A stretch of 25,347 nt of DNA. Origin: a virus. The stretch lies in the IMG/VR virus record IMGVR_UViG_3300025164_000736, positions 1-25,347 of that record; one strand, given 5' to 3'. Below are positions 4,372 through 16,747 of the stretch, in pieces. The first letter of the stretch is position 1; every line of letters starts with the position of its first letter. The translations under genes and the position numbers were made by a program. The notes under the pieces were generated by a model that saw only the letters and a program-made list of their open reading frames with translations, ran no database searches and had not been told where the DNA came from.

Positions 4372-5333
4372 TTCAGCTCCTTTCCGTTGGCGGACCTAAT
4401 CCCAAGATTCGTGCCAATGATTGCCTTGAGCCTGGCCTCTAGATCGCTCTTGGCTCGCCCGACGCGATCAAGGCTTTCCTTAACCGCCCGGCTTTCCCGA
4501 TCCAGGCTGCGGGTCTCTTCCGTGAATTCCTCGAGCTTCGTTTCGAGTCCGGCCGCCTCCTCGTCGTGCTCGGCGAGCTCGTCCATCATGGACGACTGAT
4601 CTTGGTCGGCCACCAGGATGGTTCCGTTCGAGTCCGGGAACATCATCGACAGGTAGCGATTCGTGTTTGCGCCCCAGTCTGGGGCCGGGGGTAAGCCGTC
4701 GATGACATGCGTCTTGAACCACCGACTAGCCCTGGTCAGGGCGTCGGCGCACCATTCTTTGTCCCACCGTAGCCTGTATTGCCGGAATTCAGAGCTGTCC
4801 AGCAAGACAACGAGATCCCACTCAGGGAACCCCATGCCGTCCATGTAGGTCTGGCACTGGTCCCAGTAGTACAGCGGCACCGTCTCAGTTGCATGAGCGC
4901 GGTCCTCGATGACGATCCGATCCGGGATGCGCCACTTGCGCGCGTGCTTAGCCAGTCCGGTCTTGATCTCCAGACCGCGCGGCATCAGGTAAGTTTGCGA
5001 GATTGGGTCCCACCTGTTCATGGAGACATCCTCCACAGCACAGATCAATCGGTCCGGCGAGAAGTACAGGTGGGGGATGGTCGGGTGTACGCGACGAGGG
5101 GATTCCAACAACCGGACACCGTGGACGGTGGCGTAATGTTGGGCGATCAGGCCCTCCTTCAGCTTTCCCCACAGGGTGTACTTGTTCTCCTCGAAGGCCT
5201 TTGGCAGCCTCCTGGTCTTGTCGAGCCACAGGTCGTGCGCCGACATGTATGGATTATCCCCCAGGATTGCGGCGACATCAGAGCCGCCCAGTCCGGTTTC
5301 GCGTGGCCCGGTGTGTAGTTTTTGGTTGTTCAT
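4293..5333 (-). CDS. YqaJ viral recombinase / lambda-type exonuclease
   Basis: This 346-residue protein starts with RETGLGGSDVAAILG (about 11-25), the typical opening of YqaJ-family nucleases. The PD-(D/E)xK core is visible as the Asp of FSPDRLI (Asp94) and LEIKTG (Glu122, Lys124), with the QCQTYM helix near 157-162. These enzymes resect double-stranded DNA ends 5'-3' so that a single-strand annealing partner can recombine phage DNA. No annealase (RecT/Bet-like) is recognised in the window. Residues 245-310 form a Glu/Arg/Lys-rich coiled-coil extension, and the basic tail is coded in the overlap with the next gene. The ATG overlaps the stop of a 32-residue repeat-type ORF and uses the AAGGAG within that ORF. 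Confidence 0.88.
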   Translation of the reverse strand: MNNQKLHTGPRETGLGGSDVAAILGDNPYMSAHDLWLDKTRRLPKAFEENKYTLWGKLKEGLIAQHYATVHGVRLLESPRRVHPTIPHLYFSPDRLICAVEDVSMNRWDPISQTYLMPRGLEIKTGLAKHARKWRIPDRIVIEDRAHATETVPLYYWDQCQTYMDGMGFPEWDLVVLLDSSEFRQYRLRWDKEWCADALTRASRWFKTHVIDGLPPAPDWGANTNRYLSMMFPDSNGTILVADQDQSSMMDELAEHDEEAAGLETKLEEFTEETRSLDRESRAVKESLDRVGRAKSDLEARLKAIIGTNLGIRSANGKELKWSPTKKTRRMWKSWRRRTKEEEGDA

Positions 5334-5428
5334 GGTTTCTCCTTGAGGGTGTTATAGACGTACTCAATGACGGCGGCCCGGTTGAAGTCCCAGACGGAGG
5401 CCCAGACGGAGACCAGTGGCGCCTTCAT
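5330..5428 (-). CDS. SVxx-repeat micro-ORF, 32 residues, directly ahead of yqaJ
   Basis: This ORF has 33 codons including the stop. It reads MKAPLV, then two tetrapeptide units (SVWA, SVWD), then a non-repeat segment FNRAAVIEYVYNTL and the end KEKP. Its ATG at 5428 overlaps the stop of the 72-residue gene upstream. Its own TGA overlaps the yqaJ ATG, and the codons for KEKP contain the AAGGAG that serves yqaJ. It shares its first residues with the repeat ORFs at 5640, 16374, 16565 and 16744. Its C-terminal plan is VWDF, about 12 residues and then KE-x-P, as in the ORF at 16374. This is the shortest member of the family described here. The function is unknown. Confidence 0.55.
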   Translation of the reverse strand: MKAPLVSVWASVWDFNRAAVIEYVYNTLKEKP

Positions 5429-5643
5429 GATCGCCTCTCTGCCCGGCGACCGGCCTGGACGTCGTCGGTTGGAATGCCCTGTCGGAGAATGACACTGAGA
5501 GGCTCAATGGCCCGGAGAACAGGTCCGGACACCCTAAACACGGCCTGGCTCCAAGCGTAACCGCCCACGCTACCCCCGAGGGCAATCATACTGAGCATCC
5601 GTGAGCGCGGGTCTGTGTGAACGGCGGCGAACACGGTCTTCAT
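5425..5643 (-). CDS. Hypothetical protein, 72 residues
   Basis: ATG 5643 follows AAAGGAGGCCCC, a very strong Shine-Dalgarno that lies within the last codons of the repeat ORF upstream. The product begins MKTVFAAVHTDPRSR. It has a moderately hydrophobic stretch (MLSMIALGGSVGGYAW, about 16-31) and a second short one (LSVILR), and ends in a basic tail (AGRRAERRS). It carries no tetrapeptide repeats, although it sits between two repeat ORFs. Its stop overlaps the start of the next repeat ORF. It may be a membrane-associated peptide. I recognise no family. Confidence 0.5.
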   Translation of the reverse strand: MKTVFAAVHTDPRSRMLSMIALGGSVGGYAWSQAVFRVSGPVLRAIEPLSVILRQGIPTDDVQAGRRAERRS

Positions 5644-5810
5644 GGGGCCTCCTTTACGGAGTCCCAGACGGAGTCCCAGACGGAGTCCCGGACAGAGGCC
5701 CGGACAGAGGCCCGGACGGAGTCCCAGACGGAGTCCCGGACAGAGGCCCAGACGGAGTCCCAGACGGAGCCCCGGACGGAGTCCGAGACGGAGACCAGCG
5801 GCGGCTTCAT
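5640..5810 (-). CDS. SVxx-repeat ORF, 56 residues
   Basis: The start ATG 5810 has AAAGGAGGCCCC directly ahead and overlaps the stop of the previous repeat ORF. The protein is MKPPLV, then eleven consecutive tetrapeptides of the form S-V-(W/R/S)-(D/A/G), then SVKEAP and the stop. Ser and Val codons are nearly always TCC and GTC, while the third and fourth positions vary. The TGA overlaps the ATG of the 72-residue gene, and the KEAP codons carry that gene's Shine-Dalgarno. The same design on the other strand at 16.3-16.7 kb, again in operon sense, argues that this reading frame is the real one. I recognise no family. Structure and role are unknown. Confidence 0.6.
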   Translation of the reverse strand: MKPPLVSVSDSVRGSVWDSVWASVRDSVWDSVRASVRASVRDSVWDSVWDSVKEAP

Positions 5811-5911
5811 GGGGCCTCCTTTAGGGCGTCCCGGACGGAGGCCCGGACGGAGTCCGAGACGGAGACCCAGACGGAGGCCCAGACGGAGTCCGAGACGGAG
5901 CCCGAGACGGA
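5640..5911. repeat. 12-bp periodic repeat array, left locus
   Basis: Read on the minus strand, degenerate 12-mers of the form TCCGTC(T/C)(G/C)GG(A/C/G)C run almost without break from 5911 to 5655. They are interrupted only by the short junction between two ORFs near 5808-5830. Two further units lie at 5387-5410. The unit length is a multiple of three, so expansions and contractions keep the frame. The array is far more regular than its surroundings and shares sequence with 16267-16745. Confidence 0.9.
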
Positions 5912-5920
5912 TCGGATCAT
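5807..5920 (-). CDS. SVxx-repeat ORF, 37 residues
   Basis: ATG 5920 overlaps the stop of the DUF6745 gene (ACATGATC) and follows GAGGTGGAG. The product starts MIR and lacks the MKAPLV opening. It then has seven tetrapeptides S-V-x-x and ends ALKEAP. Its stop overlaps the ATG of the next repeat ORF, and the AAAGGAGG in its final codons is that ORF's ribosome-binding site. The opening residues IR-S-V are shared with the first repeat ORF of the other locus (GIRSVWG at 16252), so the first member of each run has its own kind of start. Confidence 0.55.
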   Translation of the reverse strand: MIRSVSGSVSDSVWASVWVSVSDSVRASVRDALKEAP

Positions 5921-6801
5921 GTCTCCACCTCTGGCGAGTAGGTCTCCGCATCCAAGCCGAAGCTCCAAGCCACCCCGTCATGTGGTGTTTTCGTTGTGGG
6001 CGGGACCTGCAAGAAATATACCTTGCTGCTCCCGTCTGGCTCGGGCGTCGAATTGATCACCCGCACCATGCGCGTGGGCTCTCTCCTCTCCTCGGGCCAC
6101 CGGATCTCCCACAGCGCACCAAACTCGTCTTCGGCAAGGGCGGTAGCTCCGATCTCTCGGAGAAACCGATCTTCCCCGAAGACCCCCATCAGCGCCCGCC
6201 TGACCTCGGCATTGTTCTCGGACCGGATCCTCTCGGCCGTGAGGGTCTCCGGATGTTCGATGATGTCCGCCGACACACGGACCCCATGGATAGAGTACAC
6301 CACGGTCCCGTCACCATACCGCAGGGCGGGCCGGTCGGTGGCGTGGAGGCGACCACGTAGATCCCGGAGGATAACCTCCGGCTTCGCCGCAACGAAGGCG
6401 ATCTCGGTGCCAGGGAAAACCCAGCCGCACTCCCCCGCCACAGCGAGCAGGCCGCGCAGCTTTTCGGTCTCGTCTACGAGGCCACACTTCTCTCGGAAGA
6501 ACGAGCAAAACGCGAGCCACCCCGCGTCGTGCTGTCCGTACACGCATTGCCCTAGGTAGTGTGATGGCGGGTGACGGTGCTCGTCCTCGGCCGCCACGGC
6601 CCGCAACATCGCCGTTGGTCCTGCAAAGGACCGGATCTCCTTCGGCGGGGGCACGCCCCCGCACTGGTACATCAGACGAACCGCCGCCCGCGCCCGCGCC
6701 TCGACAAGCGGGCTCGTGTCGAGCCCGATGGCAATCCATTCATCCCTGACGCTGGGCATGGCGGCTTCTTGCTCGGGGGTCAGCTTCTCAATCTTCTTCA
6801 T
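5917..6801 (-). CDS. DUF6745 family protein
   Basis: This 294-residue protein opens MKKIEKLTPEQEAAMPSVRD, the usual start of DUF6745 proteins. It contains GRLHATDRPALRYGDG followed by HGVRV (about 165-190), then an AERIRSENNAEVRRALMGVFG segment. It ends with NSTPEPDGSSKVYFLQVPP and a tail PEVET. These blocks agree with the DUF6745 pattern as I remember it. The family is found in bacteria and phages and its biochemical role is unknown to me. The start has GGAGGAG ahead of it. The stop overlaps the first repeat ORF, so the micro-ORF run begins as a translational continuation of this gene. Confidence 0.8.
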   Translation of the reverse strand: MKKIEKLTPEQEAAMPSVRDEWIAIGLDTSPLVEARARAAVRLMYQCGGVPPPKEIRSFAGPTAMLRAVAAEDEHRHPPSHYLGQCVYGQHDAGWLAFCSFFREKCGLVDETEKLRGLLAVAGECGWVFPGTEIAFVAAKPEVILRDLRGRLHATDRPALRYGDGTVVYSIHGVRVSADIIEHPETLTAERIRSENNAEVRRALMGVFGEDRFLREIGATALAEDEFGALWEIRWPEERREPTRMVRVINSTPEPDGSSKVYFLQVPPTTKTPHDGVAWSFGLDAETYSPEVET

Positions 6802-6818
6802 GGGTTGCTCCTCCGGCG

Positions 6819-7142
6819 TTAATCGGCAACCTGGCGCTCCCCCTCAGGGGAGTACTCGCGCTGTCGCCTGACGATCCAATCCCCGGCGGGGATATGGATC
6901 TCCGCGTGTTCTTGGTGCCTGAGGACGGCCGGCCGCTCAAGCCGAAGGAGACGGCTCAGGTCCTCTCCGGCCTCGGGGAGCGTGTAGAGCGCGGCCCCGG
7001 CCTCGTCGATGGCGTGTGCATGGCCCGTGGCCTCGCCGTAGGCGAGGACCACTCGTCCACCGTCGCGGGGGATCTCGGCTCCCTGTTGCGTTCCGGCCGG
7101 CGCCCTCATGATGAGGACGTCGCCCTGTCTGTAGATCGTCAT
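6819..7142 (-). CDS. Conserved phage protein, 107 residues
   Basis: ATG 7142 is chosen for its AAGGAG at correct spacing. An in-frame ATG at 7163 overlaps the upstream stop (TAATG) but has no such site. The sequence MTIYRQGDVLIMRAPAG is followed by a GRVVLAYGEATGHAHAI block (about 28-44). A C-terminal HQEHAEIHIPAGDWIVRRQ then QREYSPEGERQVAD block completes it. This set of blocks (RQGDVL, GEATGHAHAI, HAxIxxPxGxxxVxxQREY) recurs in small hypothetical proteins of many unrelated phages. The His-rich blocks and predicted beta strands hint at a small barrel that could bind metal, which is inference. The function is not known. Confidence 0.75.
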   Translation of the reverse strand: MTIYRQGDVLIMRAPAGTQQGAEIPRDGGRVVLAYGEATGHAHAIDEAGAALYTLPEAGEDLSRLLRLERPAVLRHQEHAEIHIPAGDWIVRRQREYSPEGERQVAD

Positions 7143-7162
7143 GTTGTTCTCCTTCCCTTTCA

Positions 7163-7321
7163 TTATGGATCGTCGGTTGGCCAAAGGGCCTCCTCGAGCT
7201 CAATCAGCACCGCCACGGCCTCGTCCACGACGAGGGTTGTCCCACGGTCCGCACCGTCGAGCTCGCGGAGCTTTTGTATCAACGACCGAACATCGGCCTT
7301 GCCGATCCCTTCGCGTCTCAT
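7163..7321 (-). CDS. Hypothetical protein, 52 residues
   Basis: The start at ATG 7321 (MRREGIGKADVRSLIQKLREL) is preferred over an upstream in-frame ATG at 7372, whose extra residues look non-coding. GGTGGA lies upstream of 7321. The product is a short acidic helical protein (VVDEAVAVLIELEEALW) ending TDDP. Its stop overlaps an ATG in frame with the next gene (TAATG). It is the first leftward gene beyond the opposite-strand nuclease, so it must be read through from upstream or have its own promoter in 7322-7382. No family is recognised. Confidence 0.45.
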   Translation of the reverse strand: MRREGIGKADVRSLIQKLRELDGADRGTTLVVDEAVAVLIELEEALWPTDDP

Positions 7322-7382
7322 GATGGGTCCACCGTCCCATCCTGTTGACTTCCAAGTAAAGTGGGGATTCACCTATTTCGAC

Positions 7383-7808
7383 ATGGGAAAGAGCCAACGA
7401 AGGAAGGGTCACAACTTCGAGCGCGAGGTAGCCGCCGAGCTACGGGCCTGTGCGCCCATGATCGCGGATCGGATTCGGCGCGGGTTGCAGTCCCGGGACG
7501 GGTCCACCGTCCCGGACGTGATGACCCCCTGGCCGATCCATGTCGAGTGCAAGGTGGGGGCGAGGCCGAATGTCGGAGCGGCGATGCGACAGGCCTTGGC
7601 GGGAGCGGGCCCGGGCCAGATCCCTGTGGTCGTGACGCGGCGCGACAGAGACCCGGTGGGGGCCCTCGTCACGGTCCGATGGGTGGATCTGCGGCGGATG
7701 GTGAGCCCCCCGGCGATGTCGCCGGAGGGCTCGGGCGGGACTGGGTCAGGGGTCGGAGAGGAGCGAGTAGGCGAGGGCGAGGGCGAGAGCGAGGGCGAGG
7801 GGGCCTAG
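7383..7808 (+). CDS. PDDEXK nuclease, Holliday-junction-resolvase-like
   Basis: This 141-residue rightward gene lies within a leftward block. MGKSQRRKGHNFEREVAAEL opens as in archaeal-type resolvases and phage PDDEXK nucleases. Glu14 or Glu18 is the likely N-terminal acidic residue, and RRGLQSRDG follows. The core is VPDV (Asp45) and HVECK (Glu55, Lys57), then a helix with QAL and a VVVTRRDRDP strand. These enzymes cut branched DNA or recombination intermediates. After residue 113 the protein continues with a low-complexity tail rich in Gly, Glu and Ser, coded by GAGGGC-type hexamers. The gene ends in a 4-bp convergent overlap with its neighbour. I could not find a clear Shine-Dalgarno before ATG 7383. 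Confidence 0.75.
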   Translation: MGKSQRRKGHNFEREVAAELRACAPMIADRIRRGLQSRDGSTVPDVMTPWPIHVECKVGARPNVGAAMRQALAGAGPGQIPVVVTRRDRDPVGALVTVRWVDLRRMVSPPAMSPEGSGGTGSGVGEERVGEGEGESEGEGA

Positions 7809-8260
7809 CATGCCTCCCCGTCCGGACGCCGCCGGCGAGGGCCGCCGGTCGCTCTTGCGATGACCGCCTCGGCCGCGTCGTCGAGGGTGCGCCGGCGGCC
7901 CTCCACCACCGCCTCGGCGAGGGACCGGAGCAGTGGCCCGCACAGGGCCATCACTCTCAGGGCCCGCGCGTTCTCGAGCTGCTGCCCAACCGTCGACTTC
8001 CAGGCCAGGGCGGTCATCGCGGCGGGGGCGTCGATCCGCCCCCTGTCCGCCGCCGCTGAAGCCGCGTGTTCGGCGTACTCGGTCGTAATCGCTGCCCGGA
8101 CGAGGGCGGCGGCGTCGCCCCTGTACGCCTCGGGCCAGTCGCCGAGATCGGGCAGATCGCCCGTAAACCCGCGGCCGACTAGGTCGGCCAGGCGGAGGGC
8201 CTGGTCGAGCTCGGTTCGGGCGGAGTTGTGGGCTTTGATTAGGGTTTTCATTGTCTTCAT
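7805..8260 (-). CDS. Hypothetical helical protein, 151 residues
   Basis: ATG 8260 follows AAAGGAAAACC. A second in-frame ATG at 8251 is an alternative. The protein reads MKTMKTLIKAHNSARTELDQ and is Ala-, Arg- and Leu-rich throughout. Long predicted helices (AALVRAAITTEYAEHAASAA, RSLAEAVVEGRRRTLDDAAE) lead to a basic C-terminus (GGPRRRRPDGEAC). There is no catalytic motif, membrane segment or Cys pair. It lies downstream of the ATPase/DUF7192 pair in the same direction, but two hairpins separate it from them, so it may be transcribed at a different level. Confidence 0.6.
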   Translation of the reverse strand: MKTMKTLIKAHNSARTELDQALRLADLVGRGFTGDLPDLGDWPEAYRGDAAALVRAAITTEYAEHAASAAADRGRIDAPAAMTALAWKSTVGQQLENARALRVMALCGPLLRSLAEAVVEGRRRTLDDAAEAVIARATGGPRRRRPDGEAC

Positions 8261-8278
8261 GGTTTTCCTTTGCTTTCT

Positions 8279-8323
8279 GGATCGTGAGATCCATCCAGGG
8301 GTCGTCCAGCCGGACGACCCCTG
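8279..8323. promoter_or_regulatory. Strong intercistronic hairpin(s)
   Basis: A perfect 12-bp inverted repeat, CAGGGGTCGTCC / GGACGACCCCTG with a 4-base loop, occupies 8296-8323. A 5-bp hairpin (GGATC-GTGA-GATCC) lies beside it at 8279-8292. They sit in the only sizeable gap between the DUF7192-like gene and the 151-residue gene. No T-run follows on either strand, so this is not a standard Rho-independent terminator. An RNA-processing or stability element, an attenuator or a protein-binding site are possibilities. Confidence 0.7.
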
Positions 8324-8343
8324 AAGTGCCTCACGAGCCCGGG

Positions 8344-9393
8344 CTAGGCCGCCTCCCTCCCCCCACCGATGTCCCCAGCCCGGAGAGCCGCGAGGGTTTG
8401 GTGGGTCCACTTGCCCAGGGCAGCGCCCTGGAGTTCCCATGGAACCACGATGTCGGGGGTTACCCCGATCATCGCGGTAAGGACGTCCACAGGGATATCC
8501 TTCGGCCATCCGAGACCCGGATCGGGGATCTGGCCGGCGGCTGCGAGGCGGCATACCCCGCAGAAAACCCCGATCCGGGCCCAGCGGACGTCCGCGAAAA
8601 CCCCGGTCAGGACCCCGATATTTATGGATTGATCAGAGGGTTTTACTAGACCTGCCCAGTCCCGACGGCCACCCGCCGGGAAGAGGTCATCAGCCCTGAC
8701 CGTGGCCCAGGCCTCGACCGACCATCCCATGGCCCCGGCAGCCTCCACCAGGCCCGCTACGACGGCCCCACGAGCCGCGAAGTCCGACCGGCCCCAGGCA
8801 CACGATGCGGCGATGCTCGCGGAGACCACCAGGCGCCGTCCCGGCGCCGGCGACCGGACGGTGCGCTCCCATATCGCCGGAGAGGGATCGTCCTGGTCTC
8901 TGGACACGTATCGCCCCACGTCTAGATCGCCGTGCTCCCGGTCCGGCCGCACCCGGCGGCGAGGGGACGCCGATCCACCCGCCCATCCCGGACCGGATAG
9001 GATCTTGTCCCGGGACGCCTCGACCTGGGCCCGGAGGCCCGGGTCTGGATGATCCAGGAGCACGCTGGCCTGTGCCAGGGAGCACCCGTCCGTCCAGTCG
9101 TCCACGCCGTTCGTGGCCTTGCGGATCCGGTCGTCGATGGCGGGGTTTCCCCCGCCAAAATTCAGGGCCCTCGGCATGACGGACCGGATGTCCCGGTCCG
9201 TCACGGTGAGGACGTACCCTCCCGGCGCCGGCGCGGGAGCGGGTCCGGGTCCGGGCCCGGAGAGGCAAGTCGGATGCCAGAAGGACGTCCGGCCCTTCCC
9301 GCGCCACTCGTAAACGGCGGCCGACCCGGCCGAGACCGTGCCACCGCATGCGGCGCACTTGTGCGCCACCTTTGCCGTACAGGGTTTTTTCAT
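8344..9393 (-). CDS. DUF7192-like partner of the AAA+ ATPase, with N-terminal zinc finger
   Basis: This 349-residue protein begins with a probable zinc site, KCAACGG (Cys13, Cys16) and FWHPTC (His40, Cys43), with Trp and Tyr between. A Pro/Gly/Ala linker (about 45-59) follows. The C-terminal part has DLDVGRY (about 157-163), RLVVSASIAASCAWG and AARGAVVAGLVEAAGAMGWSVE. These match, from memory, DUF7192-type proteins that phages code beside CobS/MoxR-like ATPases and that relate to CobT/VWA-type partners. The substrate is unknown. Its ATG overlaps the ATPase stop by 4 bp, so the two are made together. The linker of repeated Gly-Pro/Ala-Pro and the added finger are notable. Confidence 0.65.
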   Translation of the reverse strand: MKKPCTAKVAHKCAACGGTVSAGSAAVYEWRGKGRTSFWHPTCLSGPGPGPAPAPAPGGYVLTVTDRDIRSVMPRALNFGGGNPAIDDRIRKATNGVDDWTDGCSLAQASVLLDHPDPGLRAQVEASRDKILSGPGWAGGSASPRRRVRPDREHGDLDVGRYVSRDQDDPSPAIWERTVRSPAPGRRLVVSASIAASCAWGRSDFAARGAVVAGLVEAAGAMGWSVEAWATVRADDLFPAGGRRDWAGLVKPSDQSINIGVLTGVFADVRWARIGVFCGVCRLAAAGQIPDPGLGWPKDIPVDVLTAMIGVTPDIVVPWELQGAALGKWTHQTLAALRAGDIGGGREAA

Positions 9394-10328
9394 GACGACA
9401 TCGCCTCCCGGTTGGCCGGCTCAAGGCGTGCGAAGTCCGCCGCGGGCCATCCCGCGCATGCGGCAGAGATTACCTCTGCCATGGACCAGCCCGCCGCGAG
9501 TAGCGCTCCCCCCCGGACGACGGTCCGGGTGGACAGGATCTGCCGGATGCGGTGCTCAGCACAGGCCTGCCGGGCTGTCGCGACCCACCGGATCCAAGGC
9601 TCCGGTGCGAGCCTGGCCTCCAGGCCCAGGTCGTAGCCTATCGCCACGCGCCCCATGGCAAAACGGTCCAGGAAAGCCCCATCTAGGGGCGACCGACCGC
9701 AGTACTCGGCCGTGGCCCCATGGCCCCATGTGTTTGCCGCCGCGATGGCGGTGAACATGGGGTGCCGTACATGGTCACGGCCGGACCGGGGGTTGGAAAA
9801 CCCCACGTCGTCCAGAGCTCGGTTAAGGGTAAGCATTAGGTTGGCGTCCCCCGCGTCCACCTCGTCTAGGAGGAAAACCCCCCCGGACTCGTAGGCTGAT
9901 ATGAAGGCCGACGCCTCCCATGCTGTCTCCCCTCCACGGAGGACGGTCCGTCCGAGCAAGTCACTCTCAGTCGCCCCCGCTGAGCATGACAAGGAGGAAA
10001 ACCCGAGCCCCAAGGCCCGGGCTGCATCAGCCGCGAGTCGGGTTTTCCCGCATCCGGCGGGCCCGGCCAGGAATAGGCTCCGGATCCCTCCGGAGATCCG
10101 AGCCAAAAGGCCCGGGAGCGACTCGTGGGCGCCGGTGACTTCCCCGAGGAGGCCCCCGTCGGGGGCCTCCATCCTGAGGACGAGCGGAGGGGCGAAGGCC
10201 AGGGCGGCCTTCGCCTCCTCTCTGGCTATGGCGCGGACCTGGTCCGCGTCCACGGAGGGCCGCAAGGCCCTCGACAGGATGTCGATCACCTCCTGTCCGG
10301 TTGGGGTTGGGGTTGGTGTCTCGTTCAT
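9390..10328 (-). CDS. AAA+ ATPase, CobS/MoxR-like
   Basis: This 312-residue protein has a Walker A motif AGPAGCGKTRLA (Gly89-Thr96), a Walker B VFLLDEVDAGD (about 151-161) and a conserved ANTWGHG loop. LDGAFLDRFAMG and STRTV carry likely sensor and arginine-finger positions. The arrangement is that of the MoxR/CobS branch of AAA+ ATPases. These work as hexamers with a partner protein to remodel other proteins or insert metal. The N-terminus (1-60) is a short helical region. ATG 10328 has AAGGAG at good spacing and is the first gene leftward from the divergent control region, so it is probably expressed early. The partner is the overlapping downstream gene. Confidence 0.85.
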   Translation of the reverse strand: MNETPTPTPTGQEVIDILSRALRPSVDADQVRAIAREEAKAALAFAPPLVLRMEAPDGGLLGEVTGAHESLPGLLARISGGIRSLFLAGPAGCGKTRLAADAARALGLGFSSLSCSAGATESDLLGRTVLRGGETAWEASAFISAYESGGVFLLDEVDAGDANLMLTLNRALDDVGFSNPRSGRDHVRHPMFTAIAAANTWGHGATAEYCGRSPLDGAFLDRFAMGRVAIGYDLGLEARLAPEPWIRWVATARQACAEHRIRQILSTRTVVRGGALLAAGWSMAEVISAACAGWPAADFARLEPANREAMSS

Positions 10329-10533: not shown

Positions 10534-11784
10534 ATGGCGGGTAAGGGGAACCATTGGCGGTCGGCGACAGAGGACGCCATCGCGGCAGCGATGCGTCACC
10601 GGCGGGGACGGGGCGAGGTCCTGGCGTGGTGTGGGGTCGTCCGGGCAGTGGCCGCCGTGCTGGACACAGATCGGGCCGCCGGGAGCCCCTCTCCGACGCT
10701 GGAGCGCTGGTTGGCGTACCAGCTGGTACACCATGCTAAACCCCCGAAACCCCGGGGAAAGCGGGCGCCCTCGGCTGTCGGCGTCGGAAAGGGCGAGGGA
10801 CGCTCGGACGGCTTCCCTAGTCGTTTCCATGGCTTGGACGAGCCAGACCGGCCGTCGGTATCCGAGAGCCACACTAGGACGATCCCTAGTCCGGAGGAGG
10901 AACTGGGGTACGCCCTGGGGATCGATCTGGGGGGGGACACCCCGCGAAGCACCCCGGGGCTCGAGCGGAGTCCTGTTAGTGTACCCCATCGCGACCCCCC
11001 CGCCGTCCCGCTGCTGGAATCCGCTCCCGGCGACACCCGGGAGCTCGAGGCCCGGTTGCTGTCCGCCGCCGAAGCCGCAACGATCCCGGACGTATCCCCC
11101 CCGGGACCTGATCTCCGAAAGATCCCCCCAAGGAATCCGCTCCCCGCAAGGAAGCGCCTCAAGAAGCTGGCCCTCGCCGTCGAAGATCTGCGGAACTGGA
11201 TCGTCTTCTGGGGCCTCGAGATCCCTGAGGCTGCCGAGGTCCTCGGGTCCACCGTCGGCCTAGTCGAACGACTGCTTACCCGTCAGTATTCTGAGAGACT
11301 GTCATGCCGACTGAGCAGGCGGCTGTCACACATCATGCACACCGACCCGTGGACCCTGCCGGACATAGCCCGGCTGGGCTCCGTTGTGCTGAATGTCGTC
11401 CCGGTCCGTAACGATTCCGAAATCGGGACCGACGCCTACAACAACGGGCTGGTTATGACAGAGCTCACGTTCTGGCGTTTCTGGAGCGCGGAGCAGGTTC
11501 GCCTCAAGGTCTTGCTCGACAAGAACACGAGGGAGTTCCTCCCGGGCCGCGAGCTCAGGGATCTCGGCAAGCTCAGGGCTCTCGACCTGCCGCGAGACAG
11601 GCCGATTGCCTGCTGTGTCAGGCACGAGCCCAGCCGACTGACAACCATGGCGTCCCATGGCGCAACCTTCGACATGAACAGGAGAGAGGCTATGGCGCGG
11701 CTCGCCCTGGCTGTCGAGGAGAGGAAGGTCAGGGCAATCTCCATCTTCACTCCACCGGCAGACTCTGAGATTGTGGAACCATGA
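10534..11784 (+). CDS. Unknown 416-residue early protein
   Basis: The frame from ATG 10534 (weak GGGA upstream) is open for 417 codons. Residues 1-70 are helical (GEVLAWCGVVRAVAAVL, LERWLAYQLVHH). Residues 70-205 are Pro/Ser/Arg-rich and probably disordered. A helical region (about 210-250, LRNWIVFWGLEIPEAAEVLG then STVGLVERLL) looks like a helix-turn-helix with the 'PEAAEVLGSTVGLVERLL' spacing of sigma-region-4-like or response-regulator readers. The last 150 residues are mixed alpha/beta without known motifs. Its position next to the divergent control region would suit a transcription regulator. That is inference, and I recognise no family. Long reverse ORFs over the low-complexity part are shadows. 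Confidence 0.55.
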   Translation: MAGKGNHWRSATEDAIAAAMRHRRGRGEVLAWCGVVRAVAAVLDTDRAAGSPSPTLERWLAYQLVHHAKPPKPRGKRAPSAVGVGKGEGRSDGFPSRFHGLDEPDRPSVSESHTRTIPSPEEELGYALGIDLGGDTPRSTPGLERSPVSVPHRDPPAVPLLESAPGDTRELEARLLSAAEAATIPDVSPPGPDLRKIPPRNPLPARKRLKKLALAVEDLRNWIVFWGLEIPEAAEVLGSTVGLVERLLTRQYSERLSCRLSRRLSHIMHTDPWTLPDIARLGSVVLNVVPVRNDSEIGTDAYNNGLVMTELTFWRFWSAEQVRLKVLLDKNTREFLPGRELRDLGKLRALDLPRDRPIACCVRHEPSRLTTMASHGATFDMNRREAMARLALAVEERKVRAISIFTPPADSEIVEP

Positions 11785-12035
11785 GCGAGAAATGCCTGAT
11801 GCTAGACCATCCCAGTGGATGGGGTTCTGCTCTGGTGATCATGCCAGAGGAGGCCAAGCGAACAATGACTCTGCGGTTGCGAAGACACCCGGCCGCCGGG
11901 ACCTTCAAGGTGAGTAATGTCTACGTGTTCGGGACGAAGATCTACGTGGCCTCGAGGGGGTCGGACGACGACAAGCTCGGCGAGTTGACGTGGCGTCTGG
12001 GCTGGTTGCGAAGCAGACAAGAAAGGAAGGAATGA
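11781..12035 (+). CDS. Hypothetical protein, 84 residues
   Basis: The ATG overlaps the stop of the 416-residue gene (CATGAG). The product begins MSEKCLMLDHPSGWGSALVI and is beta-rich (KRTMTLRLRRHPAAGTFKVS, VYVFGTKIYVASRG). It ends in a basic helix (LTWRLGWLRSRQERKE). No motif is recognised. Its stop overlaps the ATG of the RNA ligase, and its last codons carry the AAAGGAAGG that serves that gene, so it is translationally tied to both neighbours. Confidence 0.6.
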   Translation: MSEKCLMLDHPSGWGSALVIMPEEAKRTMTLRLRRHPAAGTFKVSNVYVFGTKIYVASRGSDDDKLGELTWRLGWLRSRQERKE

Positions 12036-13033
12036 GCATGCGAGTGCTGGCGTCAATTCAACGTGTGTCCGAGATCGCGCCGCTCGAGGGCACCGACCAC
12101 CTGTCGGTGGCGCGGGTCCTTGGATGGACCGTCGTAGTCCGAAAAGACGAGCTGGCCCACAACTCCCGCGTGATCTTCGTCGAAGCGGACGCCGTCGTGC
12201 CCGAGATGGAGGCGTGGTCGTTCTTGCGCGAGTCCGGATGGCGGGTGCGCACGAGGAAGATCCGCGGGCAGCTCTCCGAGGGGCTGGCCGTTCCATTGCC
12301 TCTCCCGTTCTCGTCGCTCCCTGACGGGACAGATCTCACGGCGATCCTGGGGATCACCAAGTACGAGCCACCCCAGCGCATGATCGCGGGGGAAGAGGAG
12401 GGTTCGTGGCCGGTGGGCGTCCCGAAGACGGATGAGGTCAGGCTTCAGGCGCACCCGGGCTTACTGAAGGAGATCCAGGGCCGCGAGCTGGCGGTGACGT
12501 TGAAGCTAGACGGCACGTCGGCGACGTTCTTCAAGTCCGCACAGGGCGAGTTCTTTGTCTGCTCGAGGAATCGGTCTGTGAAGAGAGGAGAGAACACCTA
12601 CTGGAACATCGCCCAGAAGTACGACCTCGAGAAGAACATGCCCCGGGGCACCGTTCTACAGGGAGAGATCTGCGGGCCAGGGATCCAACAGAACCCGCTC
12701 GGGCTCAGCAAACACGAGTTCTTCGTCTTCGGCCTGCGCCTACAATGCCCCGGCGGCGAGTACTTGGAGGCTCCATACGCCGACATGGCGTCCGGCCTAG
12801 GCCTCTCGTCGGTCCCTCCGGTGTGCATTATCCCGAACGGGAGCGGAGACCTTCGGTTTTGGCTGAACCTCGCCACGACGGCGAGATACGCATTGGCTGG
12901 CGGGTCTGTGCCGGGGGAGGGAATCGTGGTCCGCCCTGTGAAGCAGGGTGTGAAGGCGGCCTGCCTGCGCAATAGAAGGATGTCCTTCAAGGTGATCAAC
13001 CCGGACTACCTGCTGAACGGCGGCGAACAGTGA
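12032..13033 (+). CDS. RNA ligase, DraRnl / Rnl5 type
   Basis: This 333-residue ATP-dependent RNA ligase seals breaks in RNA through an enzyme-AMP intermediate. The N-terminal part (MRVLASIQRVSEIAPLEGTD, VARVLGWTVVVRKDEL, FVEADAVVPE, then RKIRGQLSEGLAVPL) is the OB-type domain of the Deinococcus DRB0094 family. The nucleotidyltransferase domain has motif I KLDGTSATFF with the AMP-accepting Lys158, a motif IV-like EGIVVRP and a motif V-like SFKVINPDYL near the end. ATG 12032 overlaps the upstream stop. ATG 12038 has better spacing from AAGGAAGG and would begin MRVLASIQ, closer to family starts. It could repair host or phage tRNA or mRNA cut by a defence nuclease. No kinase/phosphatase partner is visible. 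Confidence 0.88.
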   Translation: MSMRVLASIQRVSEIAPLEGTDHLSVARVLGWTVVVRKDELAHNSRVIFVEADAVVPEMEAWSFLRESGWRVRTRKIRGQLSEGLAVPLPLPFSSLPDGTDLTAILGITKYEPPQRMIAGEEEGSWPVGVPKTDEVRLQAHPGLLKEIQGRELAVTLKLDGTSATFFKSAQGEFFVCSRNRSVKRGENTYWNIAQKYDLEKNMPRGTVLQGEICGPGIQQNPLGLSKHEFFVFGLRLQCPGGEYLEAPYADMASGLGLSSVPPVCIIPNGSGDLRFWLNLATTARYALAGGSVPGEGIVVRPVKQGVKAACLRNRRMSFKVINPDYLLNGGEQ

Positions 13034-13134
13034 TCGAGCGCGCAATCGGGCTGTTGGTTGTCGCCTGTGCGGCCGTTACCATACCGGCGATCTTGGCTGT
13101 GATTGTCCTCTGTCTGCTAGACGCCGCGCTGTGA
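13030..13134 (+). CDS. 34-residue single-pass membrane peptide
   Basis: GTG 13030 overlaps the RNA ligase stop (CAGTGATC). The product starts MIERAIGLLVV and continues with about 25 almost purely hydrophobic residues (ACAAVTIPAILAVIVLCLL), ending DAAL. It is one membrane helix with a charged N-terminus. It ends 18 bp inside the convergent kinase gene. Such a peptide could be a membrane-active or inhibitory product, or simply a relic. Clear hydrophobic composition over its full length and coupling to the upstream gene favour a real ORF. Confidence 0.45.
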   Translation: MIERAIGLLVVACAAVTIPAILAVIVLCLLDAAL

Positions 13135-13716
13135 GATGAAGCCGCCGCGGACCAAGGCATCGACGGCCAGCCTCAGCGTCTCCATGTCCTGGTAGTACCC
13201 CAAGACGAAATCCGCTGCTGCCTCCGCCTGACCAGACAGGGCGAACCTTTCGCTGGGCAGCTCGAGCTCGGCACCACCCTTCTTGTGGATGACCACCCCG
13301 CCCGCCCTTTTGATCGCCAGGGACTCGTTCTCGAACCGGACGTCTTTGATGATCACGTGTTCGATGATGCAGACGCCAGATCGGCCGCCAGACCCAGAAG
13401 CCGGGTGAGGCAACTGGTGGACGGACGAACCGACGGACTCCCTGGCTCGGCGAAGCCCGAGACGTACCCATGCGTCCGGGTCCAGATCCCTGACGGCCTG
13501 ACCGATCCCGGACAGGGCTTGTCTGGGAGACACCGTGGGGGAGGGTTTCTCTTTGCGTTCCTCGATGTCCTCCGCGGACCAGAGCCATATCTGGCCGGCG
13601 AATTCCTTGATCGGATCCGCAAACCCGATGATTTTCGTTCTGCCCATTCTGTCGGCCAGTAAAGAGGCGACCGTGTCTTTGCCCGCTCGAGCGCGTCCGG
13701 AGATCCCAATGAGCAT
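13117..13716 (-). CDS. Deoxynucleoside monophosphate kinase
   Basis: This 199-residue P-loop kinase is likely to phosphorylate dNMPs for phage DNA synthesis. ATG 13716 gives MLIGISGRARAGKDTVASLL, with the P-loop GRARAGKDT at 7-15. The usual lid and substrate segments follow: IGFADPIKEFAGQIW (about 30-45) and a QALSGIGQAVRDLDPDAW block. IIKDVRFENESLAIKRAGGVVIH matches the DVRFxNE motif of phage T4 gp1-like dNMP kinases. Longer in-frame extensions upstream to 14112 run through the HNH gene and are not supported. The Shine-Dalgarno is weak. It is the only leftward gene between two rightward blocks. Confidence 0.82.
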   Translation of the reverse strand: MLIGISGRARAGKDTVASLLADRMGRTKIIGFADPIKEFAGQIWLWSAEDIEERKEKPSPTVSPRQALSGIGQAVRDLDPDAWVRLGLRRARESVGSSVHQLPHPASGSGGRSGVCIIEHVIIKDVRFENESLAIKRAGGVVIHKKGGAELELPSERFALSGQAEAAADFVLGYYQDMETLRLAVDALVRGGFISQRGV

Positions 13717-13785
13717 GATCAGACCGTAGGGCGCTCGGGGCCGAGAGTCTAGGCCGGGGCCATGGATTGTGAGAAGATGGGGTAA

Positions 13786-14262
13786 GTGCTGAAGCGGTGC
13801 CCGATGTGCGGAGAGGTCCTCCCTGCTGAAGGCTTCACCCACAACGGCCGGTGTCGGACCTGTGGCCGCAAAGAGCAGCGCGAGAACAAGGAGCGAATGA
13901 GACTGCGCGACCCGGTGACCTGGTGGATTCGCACGGTCATTAGAGGGGCGAAGAGCAGGAGCAAGAACGCTGATCTGACGCCGCAACAGGTCGCCGAGAT
14001 CCTGGCCGCTCAGAAGTCTTTGTGCTTCTACTGTGATCGACCCCTCAACTTCAACGTGCGCGCCGGTGAGGCTCGAGGCGTCTGGCATCCAGAGTCTCCG
14101 TCCCTGGATCAAGTAATACCGGGCGGCGGTTATTCACCCGCCAATGTGGTCGTTGCCTGCTGGGAGTGCAACCGGGCCAAGGGGGCGGCCAGACCAGACC
14201 AGATCGCTCGGCTTCATGAGCGGATCCAGGCGTTCCTGAACCGGACCAGATCGCCCGGTTGA
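13786..14262 (+). CDS. HNH endonuclease
   Basis: This 158-residue protein starts at GTG 13786 after a weak GGGG. There is an N-terminal zinc knuckle (KRCPMCGEVLP, RCRTCGRK; four Cys within residues 5-26) and a basic region. An HNH/McrA-like domain follows: CFYCDRPL (about 84-91), SLDQVIPGGGYSPANVVVAC and WECNRAKG. The catalytic His position of the canonical 'DHxxP' is Asp-Gln here (LDQVIPG), a variant known in this superfamily. The asparagines of SPANVV and CWECN are kept. Phage HNH proteins can nick DNA during packaging or act as homing nucleases. The context here does not decide. Its stop lies inside a terminator hairpin. Confidence 0.82.
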   Translation: MLKRCPMCGEVLPAEGFTHNGRCRTCGRKEQRENKERMRLRDPVTWWIRTVIRGAKSRSKNADLTPQQVAEILAAQKSLCFYCDRPLNFNVRAGEARGVWHPESPSLDQVIPGGGYSPANVVVACWECNRAKGAARPDQIARLHERIQAFLNRTRSPG

Positions 14263-14330
14263 TCATCTCCTCTGGTAATTTTTTTTTGTTAAAAAATTTC
14301 TCAGATCAGATCCGGCCGGACCGGATCGGA
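14245..14330. terminator. Rho-independent, probably bidirectional terminator
   Basis: Rightward: an ACCAGA / TCTGGT stem (14245-14250 and 14271-14276) is followed by AA and nine Ts (14279-14287), placing termination right after the HNH stop. The 20-base loop is long for a terminator. Leftward: a GATCCGG / CCGGATC hairpin (14309-14315 and 14321-14327, loop of 5) is followed on the minus strand by a run of six Ts (14291-14296). The T9/A6 tract is the most AT-rich stretch in the window. CCGGA repeats around 14312-14345 could have an added role. Confidence 0.65.
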
Positions 14331-14429
14331 CCATACCGGACCGGAGAAGACCAAACCGCGCGGGCCATACAGATTGGCTCAGCCCACCACCTCTCTCCTC
14401 TTCACCCATCCCCAGAGGCCAGGAGCTCC

Positions 14430-14546
14430 GTGAACAAGATGATCCATTCTGGCGATCCAGGGCTTTCGAACAGAGATGACCGTCCCACAGGGGAACGAAG
14501 CCGAGAGTCTAGCCTTTGTGGCTTGAAAAGCCTCTGGACCAACTAG
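14430..14546 (+). CDS. Possible small ORF, 38 residues
   Basis: GTG 14430 has AGGAG at four to five bases upstream and opens a polar 38-residue frame (MNKMIHSGDPGLSNRDDR and onward) ending LKSLWTN. No motif or hydrophobic segment is seen. It is supported only by the ribosome-binding site, and codon composition is not decisive. Confidence 0.25.
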   Translation: MNKMIHSGDPGLSNRDDRPTGERSRESSLCGLKSLWTN

Positions 14547-14605
14547 ACCGCGCCGACCATGGAAGGGCTATCCGGCGGTACTTCGCACCCTGCGTTCCTT
14601 CGACC

Positions 14606-14776
14606 ATGAAGATTAGGGACGTCAACAACAACACCCATCCCCGTCGGCCTATCGCCCCGGGTGAGTCCACCATGCCACCGCCCCAACCAAAGCGCAAGAT
14701 CGTCCTGCCAAGGGTTTCCTACGATTGCACGGTCAACGGCCCAGGCGTAGCCTCAGTGCATCGAACAGTCGGTTGA
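14606..14776 (+). CDS. Possible small ORF ending at UGA-C, candidate frameshift donor
   Basis: ATG 14606 overlaps the stop of a 16-residue ORF (14559-14609), again in ATGA form. The frame codes for 56 residues, MKIRDVNNNTHPRRPIAPGE and onward. An internal ATG at 14672 begins MPPPQPKRKIVLPRVSYDC. It ends GTC GGT TGA C at 14774-14776. The frame +1 to it is open from 14751 and continues with protein-like sequence to 14963. The last 25 residues overlap that frame. It may be an independent peptide, the front part of a frameshifted gene, or non-coding. Confidence 0.3.
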   Translation: MKIRDVNNNTHPRRPIAPGESTMPPPQPKRKIVLPRVSYDCTVNGPGVASVHRTVG

Positions 14777-14963
14777 CATCGTCCAGCTTCGCCTGCGGCT
14801 CAGGGTTCGTCCCGGCCGCTGCGAGGCATACGAGATCACCGACAACGGACCCAGGTTCCTGGGCGAGTGCGATTGGCGCGTGATGTGGCGCGCACTGTCG
14901 CAGCTCGTGGTGACCCAGGGCGGGGCGGGGAAGGAAAGGAAAGCAGATGGCCAAGTGCAGTGA
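14751..14963 (+). other. Protein-like open frame without a start codon
   Basis: After a TAG at 14748-14750 this frame is open for about 70 codons. It reads DIVQLRLRLRVRPGRCEAYE, then ITDNGPRFLGECDWRVMWRA and LSQLVVTQGG, with GC-rich third positions. It runs 17 bp into the next gene, as translationally coupled genes here do. Yet it has no ATG, GTG or TTG until the GTG-ATG deep in the middle. It may be the second half of a gene joined to 14606-14776 by a +1 frameshift, a gene broken by a 1-base change, or one using a rare start. Confidence 0.4.
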
Positions 14964-15375
14964 CTACGGGGACAGGCGCGGATGCGGCGCCGAGATCATG
15001 CTGATCAAGATCCATCGGCGGGACGGAAAGGAACAATTCATGCCGTTCGACCGTTGCTTCGAGGTGCGCCTCAAGGACGGGTCCGAGGTGATGGGGGCCT
15101 TCATCCCTCACTGGCTGACGTGCCCAGAGGCCGAGGACAAAAGGGCGAAGGAGATCGCCTACATGCGTCAACGCGAGGAGAAGTTCCAGGCGGGCCGTCT
15201 GAACAAGGACGGCAACGGCAACGGCGGAGGTGAAGGCAAGCGGGGCGGCGACTTTCGCCGCGCGTCCGAGCGTCCCGACCAGCGCCAGTCCGCGAACCGC
15301 GACCGGGGGACCGGCGGCCAGGCTCGTGGAGACCAACGGGGCCGTGGCGGCCGTGATGAGGACATTCCCTTCTAG
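14947..15375 (+). CDS. Zinc-ribbon protein with SSB-like acidic tail
   Basis: This 142-residue protein starts at ATG 14947 after AAGGAAAGGAAAGC. Residues 1-75 resemble a common small phage zinc protein. KCSDYG and RGCGAE carry Cys4 and Cys13, QFMPFDRC carries Cys37, and FIPHWLTCPEAE carries His55 and Cys59, the usual 'H-x-x-T-C-P' ending. Residues 80-135 are a Gly/Arg/Asn/Asp-rich flexible linker. The last residues are DEDIPF, the form of the SSB C-terminal tip that binds replication and repair proteins. It does not show a clear SSB OB-fold sequence. It may recruit replication partners or stand in for SSB in the helicase-containing operon. The tail match is direct, the role is inferred. Confidence 0.65.
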   Translation: MAKCSDYGDRRGCGAEIMLIKIHRRDGKEQFMPFDRCFEVRLKDGSEVMGAFIPHWLTCPEAEDKRAKEIAYMRQREEKFQAGRLNKDGNGNGGGEGKRGGDFRRASERPDQRQSANRDRGTGGQARGDQRGRGGRDEDIPF

Positions 15376-15420
15376 GGAGATCCGAGTGCGGTTCAAAGGC
15401 GAAAGGTCTTGGAGGTATCC

Positions 15421-15690
15421 ATGAGGGCATTCATTCCGTTCGGCCGCCGTGTCTTGGTCCGTGTTTCTGGTCCCGACGAGCTCACCCCGGGCGGGCTTCA
15501 CATCCCCTCTGTGGCCCAAGAGGCCAAGCTGGAGGGTGTCGTCGTCGCGGTCGGGTCGGATATCGAGGTGATCCGTCCCGGGCACCAGGTTCTCTTTGGA
15601 CGGTTCAGCGGAACCGTCCTCACCGTCAACAACGAGACCCTGCGGCTCGTCCACGAAGACGAGCTACATGGAAGGTTCGAGGAGTCGTAG
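15421..15690 (+). CDS. groES: GroES-type co-chaperonin
   Basis: This 89-residue phage-coded chaperonin-10 caps the host GroEL ring during folding of phage proteins. ATG 15421 has GGAGG at good spacing and gives MRAFIPFGRRVLVRVSGPDE. The mobile-loop region LTPGGLHIPSVAQEAKLEGV matches the 'T-x-GG-(I/L)-x-(L/I)-P' GroES loop. The following VVAVGSD, RPGHQVLFGRFSGT and LVHEDELHG strands match GroES order and length (family about 95). Phages such as T4 (gp31) use their own GroES to fold large capsid proteins, so this may aid the capsid protein coded at 24839. It lies between the SSB-tailed protein and a lipoprotein gene. Confidence 0.88.
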   Translation: MRAFIPFGRRVLVRVSGPDELTPGGLHIPSVAQEAKLEGVVVAVGSDIEVIRPGHQVLFGRFSGTVLTVNNETLRLVHEDELHGRFEES

Positions 15691-15693
15691 ACA

Positions 15694-15951
15694 ATGAAAA
15701 CCCCCCTTCTCTGTCTTGTGGCCGTCCTTGGTTTCTCCTCCGGCGTTGGGTGTCAAAGGGCCGTCAAGATGGAGGAGGGGGGTAATGCCCGGTGCTACTA
15801 CGACGAGACGCTGATCTTCAACGGACAGATCACCTTGGTCGGAGAGGGAGAGGTCAACTTCTCTGAGACCCTAACCGGCATTCATCGGCTGTGCTCGGAC
15901 TCGGCGGTGTGGTGTCAGATAGACTTCTCCCCTAAGGGGGACGCCAAGTGA
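15694..15951 (+). CDS. Small lipoprotein
   Basis: This 85-residue protein has a complete lipoprotein signal, MKTPLLCLVAVLGFSSGVGC. It has a Lys2 N-region, a hydrophobic core and a lipobox-like SGVGC with Cys20 as the lipidation site. The mature part is short and polar, with Cys residues (ARCYYDET, HRLCSDS, VWCQID) that could form disulfides. It would sit in the periplasm or on the outer membrane. Roles such as superinfection exclusion or lysis are usual for phage lipoproteins, but nothing here decides. The stop overlaps the GTG of the next gene. No family is recognised. Confidence 0.7.
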   Translation: MKTPLLCLVAVLGFSSGVGCQRAVKMEEGGNARCYYDETLIFNGQITLVGEGEVNFSETLTGIHRLCSDSAVWCQIDFSPKGDAK

Positions 15952-16259
15952 GCGGTGGATCTTACGACTACGGGCATCTGCACCTCGCCGACCTCGCCGA
16001 GGAGGTCCAACGGCGGGCGCTAGGCAAGAAGAACTGGCAGACGCGCCTCGCGTTTGCTCGCCTCCTCTCTTTGTGTGCCCTGGCGGCGCATGCTCTGGAG
16101 TGGGTGGACTCTGGCGATTATGCCGCCGGTGACGAGGACGCCCCCATTCTGGCCGCCTTGGGATCCCAGGCCGCCGATATCGCTTCCTCGGCAGACAAGA
16201 TTCGTCGAGCCGCGGAGGCCCTGGTTCCGGAGTTGGCCGGCGAGGAGCCCCGTGGCTGA
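15948..16259 (+). CDS. Conserved phage protein, MSGGSYDY type
   Basis: GTG 15948 overlaps the upstream stop (AAGTGAG). The 103-residue protein opens MSGGSYDYGHLHLADLAEEV, a start I know from many small hypothetical phage proteins (MSGGS(Y/F)(D/N)Y). An all-helical body follows, with FARLLSLCALAAHALEWVDS and SGDYAAGDEDAPI, then SSADKIRRAAEAL. The conserved 'ALEWVDSGDY' portion also recalls that family. The function is unknown. Its last codons (GAGGAGCCCC) serve as Shine-Dalgarno for the first repeat ORF, whose GTG lies 8 bp before its stop. Confidence 0.7.
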   Translation: MSGGSYDYGHLHLADLAEEVQRRALGKKNWQTRLAFARLLSLCALAAHALEWVDSGDYAAGDEDAPILAALGSQAADIASSADKIRRAAEALVPELAGEEPRG

Positions 16260-16377
16260 TCAAGGAATCCGATCCGTCTGGGGCTCCGTCTGGGACTCCG
16301 TCTGGGGCTCCGTCTCGGACTCCGTCTCAGCCCCCGTCTGGGACTCCGTCTCGGAGTCCGTCCGGGAGGCCCCATGA
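16252..16377 (+). CDS. SVxx-repeat ORF, 41 residues
   Basis: GTG 16252, with GAGGAG ahead, opens MADQGIR, then seven tetrapeptides (SVWG, SVWD, SVWG, SVSD, SVSA, PVWD, SVSE), then SVREAP and TGA. The stop overlaps the ATG of the next repeat ORF, whose Shine-Dalgarno GGGAGG lies in the REAP codons. Like the first member at the left locus (IRSVSG), it lacks the MKAPLV opening and starts from IRSV. Reading in operon sense and the shared ending support it as a coding frame. The role is unknown. Confidence 0.55.
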   Translation: MADQGIRSVWGSVWDSVWGSVSDSVSAPVWDSVSESVREAP

Positions 16378-16745
16378 AGGCACCACTGGAGTCCGTCTGG
16401 GAGTCCGTCTCGGGCTCCGTCTGGGGTTCTATCTGGGATTCCTTCTCGGCCTCCGTCTCGGACTCCGTCTCGGAGTCCGTCTCGGAGTCCGTCTGGGACT
16501 GCGTATGGGATTTCCCCTCTGACCAAATCCGGGATCTCGTCGCGGTCTCCGTAAAGGAGATTCCATGAAGGCACCACTGGTCTCCGTCCGGGCCTCCGTC
16601 TGGGCCTCCGTCCGGGACTCCGTCTGGGACCCCGTCTTGGCCTCCGTCCGGACCTCCGTCCGGACCTCCGTCTGGGAGCCCGTCTCGGCCTCCGTCTGGG
16701 ACTCCGTCTGGGTCTCCGTCTCGGACTCCGTCCGGGAGACCCCAT
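16267..16745. repeat. 12-bp periodic repeat array, right locus
   Basis: On the plus strand, degenerate 12-mers TCCGTC(T/C)(G/C)GG(A/C/G)(C/G) recur through 16267-16745. The breaks are ATGAAGGCACCACTGG openings at 16374 and 16565 and one non-repeat insert near 16500-16550. The array shares units with the left locus at 5640-5911 but lies in the opposite orientation in the window. Confidence 0.9.
16374..16568 (+). CDS. SVxx-repeat ORF, 64 residues
   Basis: This ORF starts MKAPLE and has ten tetrapeptide units, mostly S-V-(W/S)-(E/G/D/A). Degenerate members are SIWD, SFSA and CVWD. A non-repeat segment FPSDQIRDLVAV follows, with the end SVKEIP. The ATG overlaps the previous stop, and the TGA overlaps the next ATG. 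The final codons contain AAAGGAG for the next ORF. The plan of VWDF followed by a short non-repeat insert and KE-x-P is shared with the 32-residue ORF ahead of yqaJ. It is the most diverged member of this locus. Confidence 0.6.
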   Translation: MKAPLESVWESVSGSVWGSIWDSFSASVSDSVSESVSESVWDCVWDFPSDQIRDLVAVSVKEIP

Positions 16746-16747
16746 GA
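16565..16747 (+). CDS. SVxx-repeat ORF, 60 residues
   Basis: This ORF starts MKAPLV and has twelve tetrapeptides in a row, of S-V-(R/W/S)-(A/D/T/E/V) type with two PV units (PVLA, PVSA), ending SVRETP. AAAGGAG of the upstream ORF's end serves its ATG at 16565. Its own end codons (CGGGAGACC) serve the ATG at 16744. Ser and Val codons are again nearly all TCC and GTC. It is the longest uninterrupted member. I recognise no family. Trp and Arg alternation with acidic residues might give a surface-binding or membrane-active fibre, which is speculation. Confidence 0.6.
   Translation: MKAPLVSVRASVWASVRDSVWDPVLASVRTSVRTSVWEPVSASVWDSVWVSVSDSVRETP

Follow-up and report, generated by a model that had tools for sequence, protein, structure and literature searches.

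Phage proteins with variable tetrapeptide repeats are already known. In gp54 of mycobacteriophage Tweety (Che8 gp57, PMC gp51), the first six bases of a 12-bp tetrapeptide unit are invariant and the last two residues vary at first and second codon positions, from which the authors inferred selection for variation, and the number of units varies between phages (PMC2884959, 2007). Bordetella phage BMP-1 bbp36 VR2 also contains tandem coding repeats, which vary in number between isolates and are dispensable for growth (PMC2884959). In diversity-generating retroelements, too, the diversity of a phage protein is restricted to certain codon positions. Here we describe arrays of SVxx tetrapeptide units, x being variable, that stand as short open reading frames (micro-ORFs) in two chains on a 25,347-nucleotide stretch of viral DNA, positions 1 to 25,347 of IMG/VR record IMGVR_UViG_3300025164_000736 (hereafter the window), and their relation to DUF6745 (PF20530; phrog_31813), a family that includes Microcystis phage Ma-LMM01 A0A7T8, Mycobacterium phage prophiGD102-1 gp38 and the window gene 5917-6801.

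The Tweety gp54 and DUF6745 arrays vary in the same style and are so alike at the DNA level. Nevertheless, gp54 (phrog_3416, with no Pfam match), although the nearest analogue described so far, is not homologous to DUF6745, and its AAxx units are contained in a single long ORF, with no free micro-ORFs. Regarding bbp36 VR2, its element is of 24 bp and is not a tetrapeptide array, and no micro-ORF chain is described in PMC2884959. A diversity-generating retroelement was rejected for the arrays studied here, as in many arrays position 7 of the unit shows C, T or G, A being absent, and position 11 is mostly limited to A or C, a pattern that is not adenine-directed; no RVT_1 reverse transcriptase was found in the ten phage records examined, the window among them, and these records may be fragments. 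Within the open-licence literature, where we found no paper naming DUF6745 and none printing the repeat motifs in a phage context, both the detachment of arrays as chains of coupled micro-ORFs and the link of these arrays with DUF6745 appear to be new. On balance, we consider it probable that the micro-proteins represent the variable part of DUF6745 in detached and multiplied form, and that they act in trans with this protein.

The tetrapeptide array of DUF6745 and its detached counterparts

The protein encoded at 5917-6801 (minus strand, 294 aa) matches PF20530 with a score of 198 bits against a cut-off of 27 (E=1.3e-58). A 12-bp pattern matched 79 genome contigs, most of which were set aside as simple SVSV/SVAV-like repeats or unrelated frames. 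The sole informative match, contig L079 from a Bryobacter metagenome-assembled genome, contains an SVxx run within a protein that continues GYGQHDAGWLAFYEYF. This array-bearing protein and the window protein share PF20530 and can be aligned along most of their length, with a gap at the array; about 22 unrelated residues occupy the place where an array would precede YGQHDA in the window protein, and the same was observed in contigs L119, L121 and L143. A scan of viral contigs yielded 80 DUF6745 loci, most of them with in-frame SVxx arrays of 8 to more than 100 units located between SPLSQGLTRAI-like and GYGQHDA-like flanks, whereas other lineages of the family contain QVxx, KVxx, AVxx, QLxx or SLxx in the array position. 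The tetrapeptide array, although common in phage members, falls outside the Pfam definition of PF20530. Most viral members thus contain an in-frame xVxx or xLxx array whose unit is of the micro-ORF type, so that the micro-ORFs and the DUF6745 array have reading frame and unit in common; the window member lacks the array, and the window arrays are present instead as separate coupled micro-ORFs in two chains. The initial annotation, made from the letters alone, knew of no described family with this plan, a view that is not supported, since SVxx arrays are integral to DUF6745 proteins and an array-less version lies immediately upstream of, and overlaps, the minus-strand chain; the initial annotation had made no link between the ORFs and this gene.

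Some further observations concern the in-gene arrays themselves. The longest one seen (L109/L189, IMGVR_UViG_3300043811_000051) has about 135 units in a DUF6745 open frame of 917 residues and shows a broader residue set at the x positions. In L112, L160 and L162 the array runs in shifted frames that split DUF6745 into N- and C-terminal parts, possibly through assembly errors or real frameshifts. Many contigs terminate within the array (e.g. L107, L110, L115, L120, L122), and for this reason DUF6745 genes are probably under-represented in assemblies.

Besides the window, about 12 contigs combine an array-less DUF6745 gene with nearby free-standing array micro-ORFs. After removal of near-duplicates, detached arrays, scored as 12-nt periodic stretches outside the gene that were neither 3- nor 6-nt periodic, were present at 8 of 13 array-less and at 2 of 39 array-bearing DUF6745 loci (Fisher p=6e-5), in a count where retrieval via DUF6745 makes free arrays elsewhere invisible, some flanks are short, several contigs were excluded by the motif filter, and L231, L236 and L239 are relatives and not fully independent. 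The two array-bearing exceptions look spurious, one being an RVQV microsatellite (L197) and the other a single scoring window (L186).

The detached units found elsewhere are of the SVxx, QVxx, AVxx, QLxx and SLxx types, with a start and an end particular to each phage. Seven ORFs of the form (M/V)IDPG(P/E)C...LEEE(S/P), with ATGA or GTGA junctions, are present in L119/L201, and three joined ORFs beginning M(I/K)SVKYQV..., plus a fourth behind the partner gene, in L143/L245. About eight micro-ORFs, including two identical copies of one ORF, were found in L231, a QLxx set in L237, and comparable sets in L121/L206, L191, L200, L236, L238 and L239; L224 has one SLxx ORF, and in L227 the arrays lie about 3 kb upstream. 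In the window, L119 and L143, the micro-ORFs follow DUF6745 directly and are coupled to it by overlap. The MKAPL start pattern was found, among viral contigs, only in assemblies of the window virus.

Overlapping micro-ORF chains in the window

The minus-strand chain runs from DUF6745 (6801-5917) through four short ORFs, here m1 to m4, to a YqaJ exonuclease gene (5333-4293), with five consecutive ATGA stop/start overlaps of 4 nt. The first two are SVxx micro-ORFs: m1 (5920-5807, MIRSV..KEAP, 37 aa) with 7 V-periodic units and m2 (5810-5640, MKPPLVSV..KEAP, 56 aa) with 12 units. The third, m3 (5643-5425, 72 aa), has no repeats and no match in Pfam, PHROG or NCBIfam, and shares with the others the Shine-Dalgarno sequence and ATGA start. 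The last one, m4 (5428-5330, MKAPLVSVWASVWD..KEKP, 32 aa), contains two clear SVxx units and is possibly a decayed micro-ORF. On the plus strand, four ORFs (p1 to p4) are linked by three ATGA overlaps. The GTG start of p1 (16252-16377, ..REAP, 41 aa, 9 SVxx units) sits within the 3′ end of the gene at 15948-16259, with an 8-nt overlap; p2 (16374-16568, MKAPLESV..KEIP, 64 aa) shows 10 V-periodic SVxx units and a degenerate tail, and p3 (16565-16747, MKAPLVSV..RETP, 60 aa) 13 V-periodic SVxx units. The fourth ORF, p4 (16744-17061), begins MKAPLVSG and lacks repeats. GGAG precedes an internal start at 16819 (MAKQIYT...), and p4 probably joins the start module left over from a vanished micro-ORF to a downstream gene that has this internal start as its own. 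No match to PF20530 was obtained for p3, the micro-ORFs being array pieces and not DUF6745 members.

The six SVxx ORFs on two opposite-strand loci that had been described in the initial annotation are all in place, all end (K/R)ExP-TGA and four of them begin MK(A/P)PL; m3 and p4, which belong to the same chains, had been overlooked. The common tail KEAP/REAP/KEIP/RETP corresponds to a translated GGAG(G), i.e. the Shine-Dalgarno sequence, plus a spacer ahead of ATGA. The shared start and end, previously taken mainly as protein modules, are thus largely translation signals instead, and from these Shine-Dalgarno sequences and ATGA overlaps we infer that the micro-ORFs of both loci form chains with translational coupling and are presumably translated. 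Gene finders are likely to skip or mis-frame ORFs of this kind. The idea of a spreading or duplicated element was retained, in the sense that the units are multiplied and dispersed.

The repeat signal is well above chance, with Tandem Repeats Finder (TRF) scores of 237 and 278 and a lag-12 identity that peaks in the window at 84/96, whereas the highest value in 200 mononucleotide shuffles was 45/96. The plus-strand array is base-identical, with zero units gained or lost, in two further assemblies of the same virus (G002 and L001); G002 and the window are 99.9% identical over 15.4 kb, with no indel. Nine of the 14 differences between the window and G002 cluster in about 60 bases (15933-15995) just upstream of the plus-strand chain, perhaps reflecting a recombination tract or a strain mixture.

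Selection on the arrays and rival explanations

The codon composition of the arrays was analysed in 66 in-gene arrays comprising 1,236 SVxx units. Minor codons, defined as departures from the array's own majority codon, numbered only 7 at S and 29 at V, versus 704 and 523 at the two x positions. Between phages the S codon varies (AGC, TCG, TCC, TCT, AGT), the AGY and TCN serine groups being more than one base apart, and the V codon also varies (GTC, GTG, GTT). The x codons are chiefly NGG (W, R, G) and GAN/GCN (D, A), and the same residues recur across phages; the window arrays read TCC GTC, then W/R/S, then D/A/G/V/E. Arrays may differ on near-identical genes, as in L105/L106, whose core DNA is 95.7% identical. 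The x residues of free arrays are more varied than those of in-gene arrays, and the x residues of adjoining units tend to differ, a weak effect (z -2.4 and -3.1) that was not used as evidence for a solenoid. The free ORFs of related phages retain their frame, start and junction, at ratios of nonsynonymous to synonymous polymorphism (pN/pS) of 0.44-1.45. This maintenance of frame, starts and ATGA junctions supports the selected reading frame proposed in the initial annotation, which would have been refuted by repeats kept as DNA without their frame. The codon pattern marks the array reading frame as coding, with x positions that look diversified by selection. From the near-invariance of S and V, together with x residues that recur via different codons, we infer diversifying selection with concerted evolution rather than drift or a fixed DNA motif: each lineage would have homogenised its own unit through duplication, with the same residue choices nevertheless retained or restored.

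In the mechanism that we propose, the micro-ORFs would be translated genes, each coding one detached copy of the array usually found inside DUF6745. A ribosome ending one ORF would restart on the next one via the Shine-Dalgarno sequence and ATGA with which most of the ORFs end, giving rise to differing array peptides alongside DUF6745. New peptides would arise when whole ORFs duplicate and when 12-bp units are gained, lost or shuffled. Selection would meanwhile hold V (or L) at each fourth residue and favour variety at both x positions. The array peptides, which may be rod-like helices, would join the array-less DUF6745 as exchangeable subunits replacing the internal array, and would probably touch some partner that varies; a variable host factor in this place is our guess from the variation. 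Regarding structure, the DUF6745 core was modelled by AlphaFold2 with predicted local distance difference test (pLDDT) values mostly above 90. No match to the DUF6745 fold below E=0.001 was found in PDB, and in BFVD three matches fell below 0.001, two to DUF6745 proteins and one to a phage fragment without a name. The m2 peptide was modelled as a single helix (pLDDT 84), a weak lead for a helical array peptide. AlphaFold2 often yields helices from low-complexity input, and repeats of exactly four residues do not line up into a straight hydrophobic stripe along an alpha helix.

Several observations weigh against this proposal. The plus-strand chain of the window lies 10 kb from DUF6745 and on the opposite strand. 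No detached arrays were found in the examined flanks of the array-less loci L124-128, L145, L152, L204 and L255, so the split is not obligatory. Furthermore, the window arrays are looser than in-gene arrays, pN/pS near 1 in the free ORFs equally fits relaxed constraint, and the array was modelled by AlphaFold2 with low confidence (pLDDT <50). The distance of the second chain would also be expected if the micro-ORFs were independent, fast-evolving early effectors, for instance against host defence, derived from the DUF6745 array and now uncoupled from DUF6745. The sets located kilobases away in L227, L200 and L191 and the more varied x residues of free arrays fit this explanation, which we nevertheless regard as unlikely, because free arrays go with array-less and not with array-bearing DUF6745 (in a retrieval that would miss free arrays elsewhere) and because the micro-ORFs of the window, L119 and L143 are overlap-coupled to the DUF6745 gene just ahead of them. 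The looseness of the window arrays, the decayed aspect of m4, p2 and p4, and the pN/pS values could alternatively reflect weakly constrained junk, in which 12-bp repeats grow by slippage and ORFs are open merely since all frames are, as indeed tends to be the case in the arrays. Drift, however, should alter the third positions of S and V, where hardly any change is observed; in addition, starts, Shine-Dalgarno sequences and ATGA/GTGA junctions are maintained in chains of up to seven ORFs elsewhere, and the arrangement recurs with different unit types, all of which makes this explanation improbable.

The presence of several different arrays per genome, the near-identical DUF6745 genes with differing arrays and the whole-ORF duplication in L231 would be compatible with silent donor cassettes that recombine into DUF6745 to alter its internal array, in the manner of pilE or vlsE. 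We give little credence to this possibility: in the DUF6745 genes adjoining free arrays there is no internal array for a donor to replace, the free ORFs do not resemble the in-gene flanks SPLSQGLTRAI and GYGQHDA at their ends, and the cassettes retain their own translation signals. Finally, the 12-bp repeats might work as DNA or RNA (iterons, recombination sites or a structured leader), the ORFs being by-products. Positions 1-6 are near-invariant within each array, and the QVxx arrays of L143 and L231 are predicted to fold more stably than shuffled sequences (z -3.8 and -4.4). On the contrary, no such excess over shuffles is seen for the window arrays (z -0.6 and +0.3), and on this comparison RNA structure was rejected as a general purpose of the arrays. 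Which bases are invariant depends on the phage (there are five S codons and three V codons), yet the residues that they encode recur, and most arrays are located within a conserved protein gene. A role at the nucleic acid level is, in our judgement, very improbable.

Genomic context and significance of DUF6745

The window corresponds to a temperate tailed phage that encodes an integrase, a P22-like portal, a DnaB-type helicase, a dNMP-kinase-like protein, a Dam-type methylase, an RNA ligase and a GroES-like chaperonin. Its relative G002 extends 10.5 kb further, so that the window record is probably a fragment. The minus-strand chain is closed by the YqaJ/RecE-like exonuclease gene (4293-5333; PF09588, E=2.4e-18; phrog_434), whose ATGA overlap is with m4; a search for relatives with this gene revealed no viral relative. 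Next to DUF6745, whose stop overlaps the m1 start, a small partner protein with a QGDV...QREY-PEG pattern is encoded at 6819-7148 on the minus strand (phrog_27831, E=8.8e-15), and proteins with this pattern adjoin DUF6745, upstream or downstream, in 25 loci. The vicinity of the YqaJ-type exonuclease and of this small conserved partner suggests an early intracellular role. Neither DUF6745 nor the partner gene had a match in PADLOC-DB, a library that phage counter-defence proteins fall outside of. On the plus strand, the GroES-like co-chaperonin (15409-15690; PF00166, E=1.7e-14) lies just upstream of the micro-ORF region, and the protein at 11990-13033, with matches to an RNA-ligase domain and a PHA02142 OB-fold domain, is a possible phage RNA repair enzyme.

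Beyond the detachment proposed above, we tentatively put forward a broader interpretation, which may well prove too wide: phages would have repeatedly split a scaffold with a variable repeat arm into a constant DUF6745 core and a polycistronic, coupled library of short array peptides, serving as exchangeable recognition arms that are renewed by unit shuffling and cassette duplication with no dedicated mutator. DUF6745 is a widespread and named phage family that is unstudied, in whose arrays little appears to vary but one or two amino-acid-changing bases in each 12-bp unit. The same W/R/G and D/A choices made via different codons are a strong sign of diversifying selection on an early-region phage protein, and this protein possibly meets host factors. 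The detached chains constitute a natural experiment in which the variable part is separate, small, present in multiple copies and simple to express, tag, delete or swap; as this part stands alone, the binding partner of the array is directly testable.

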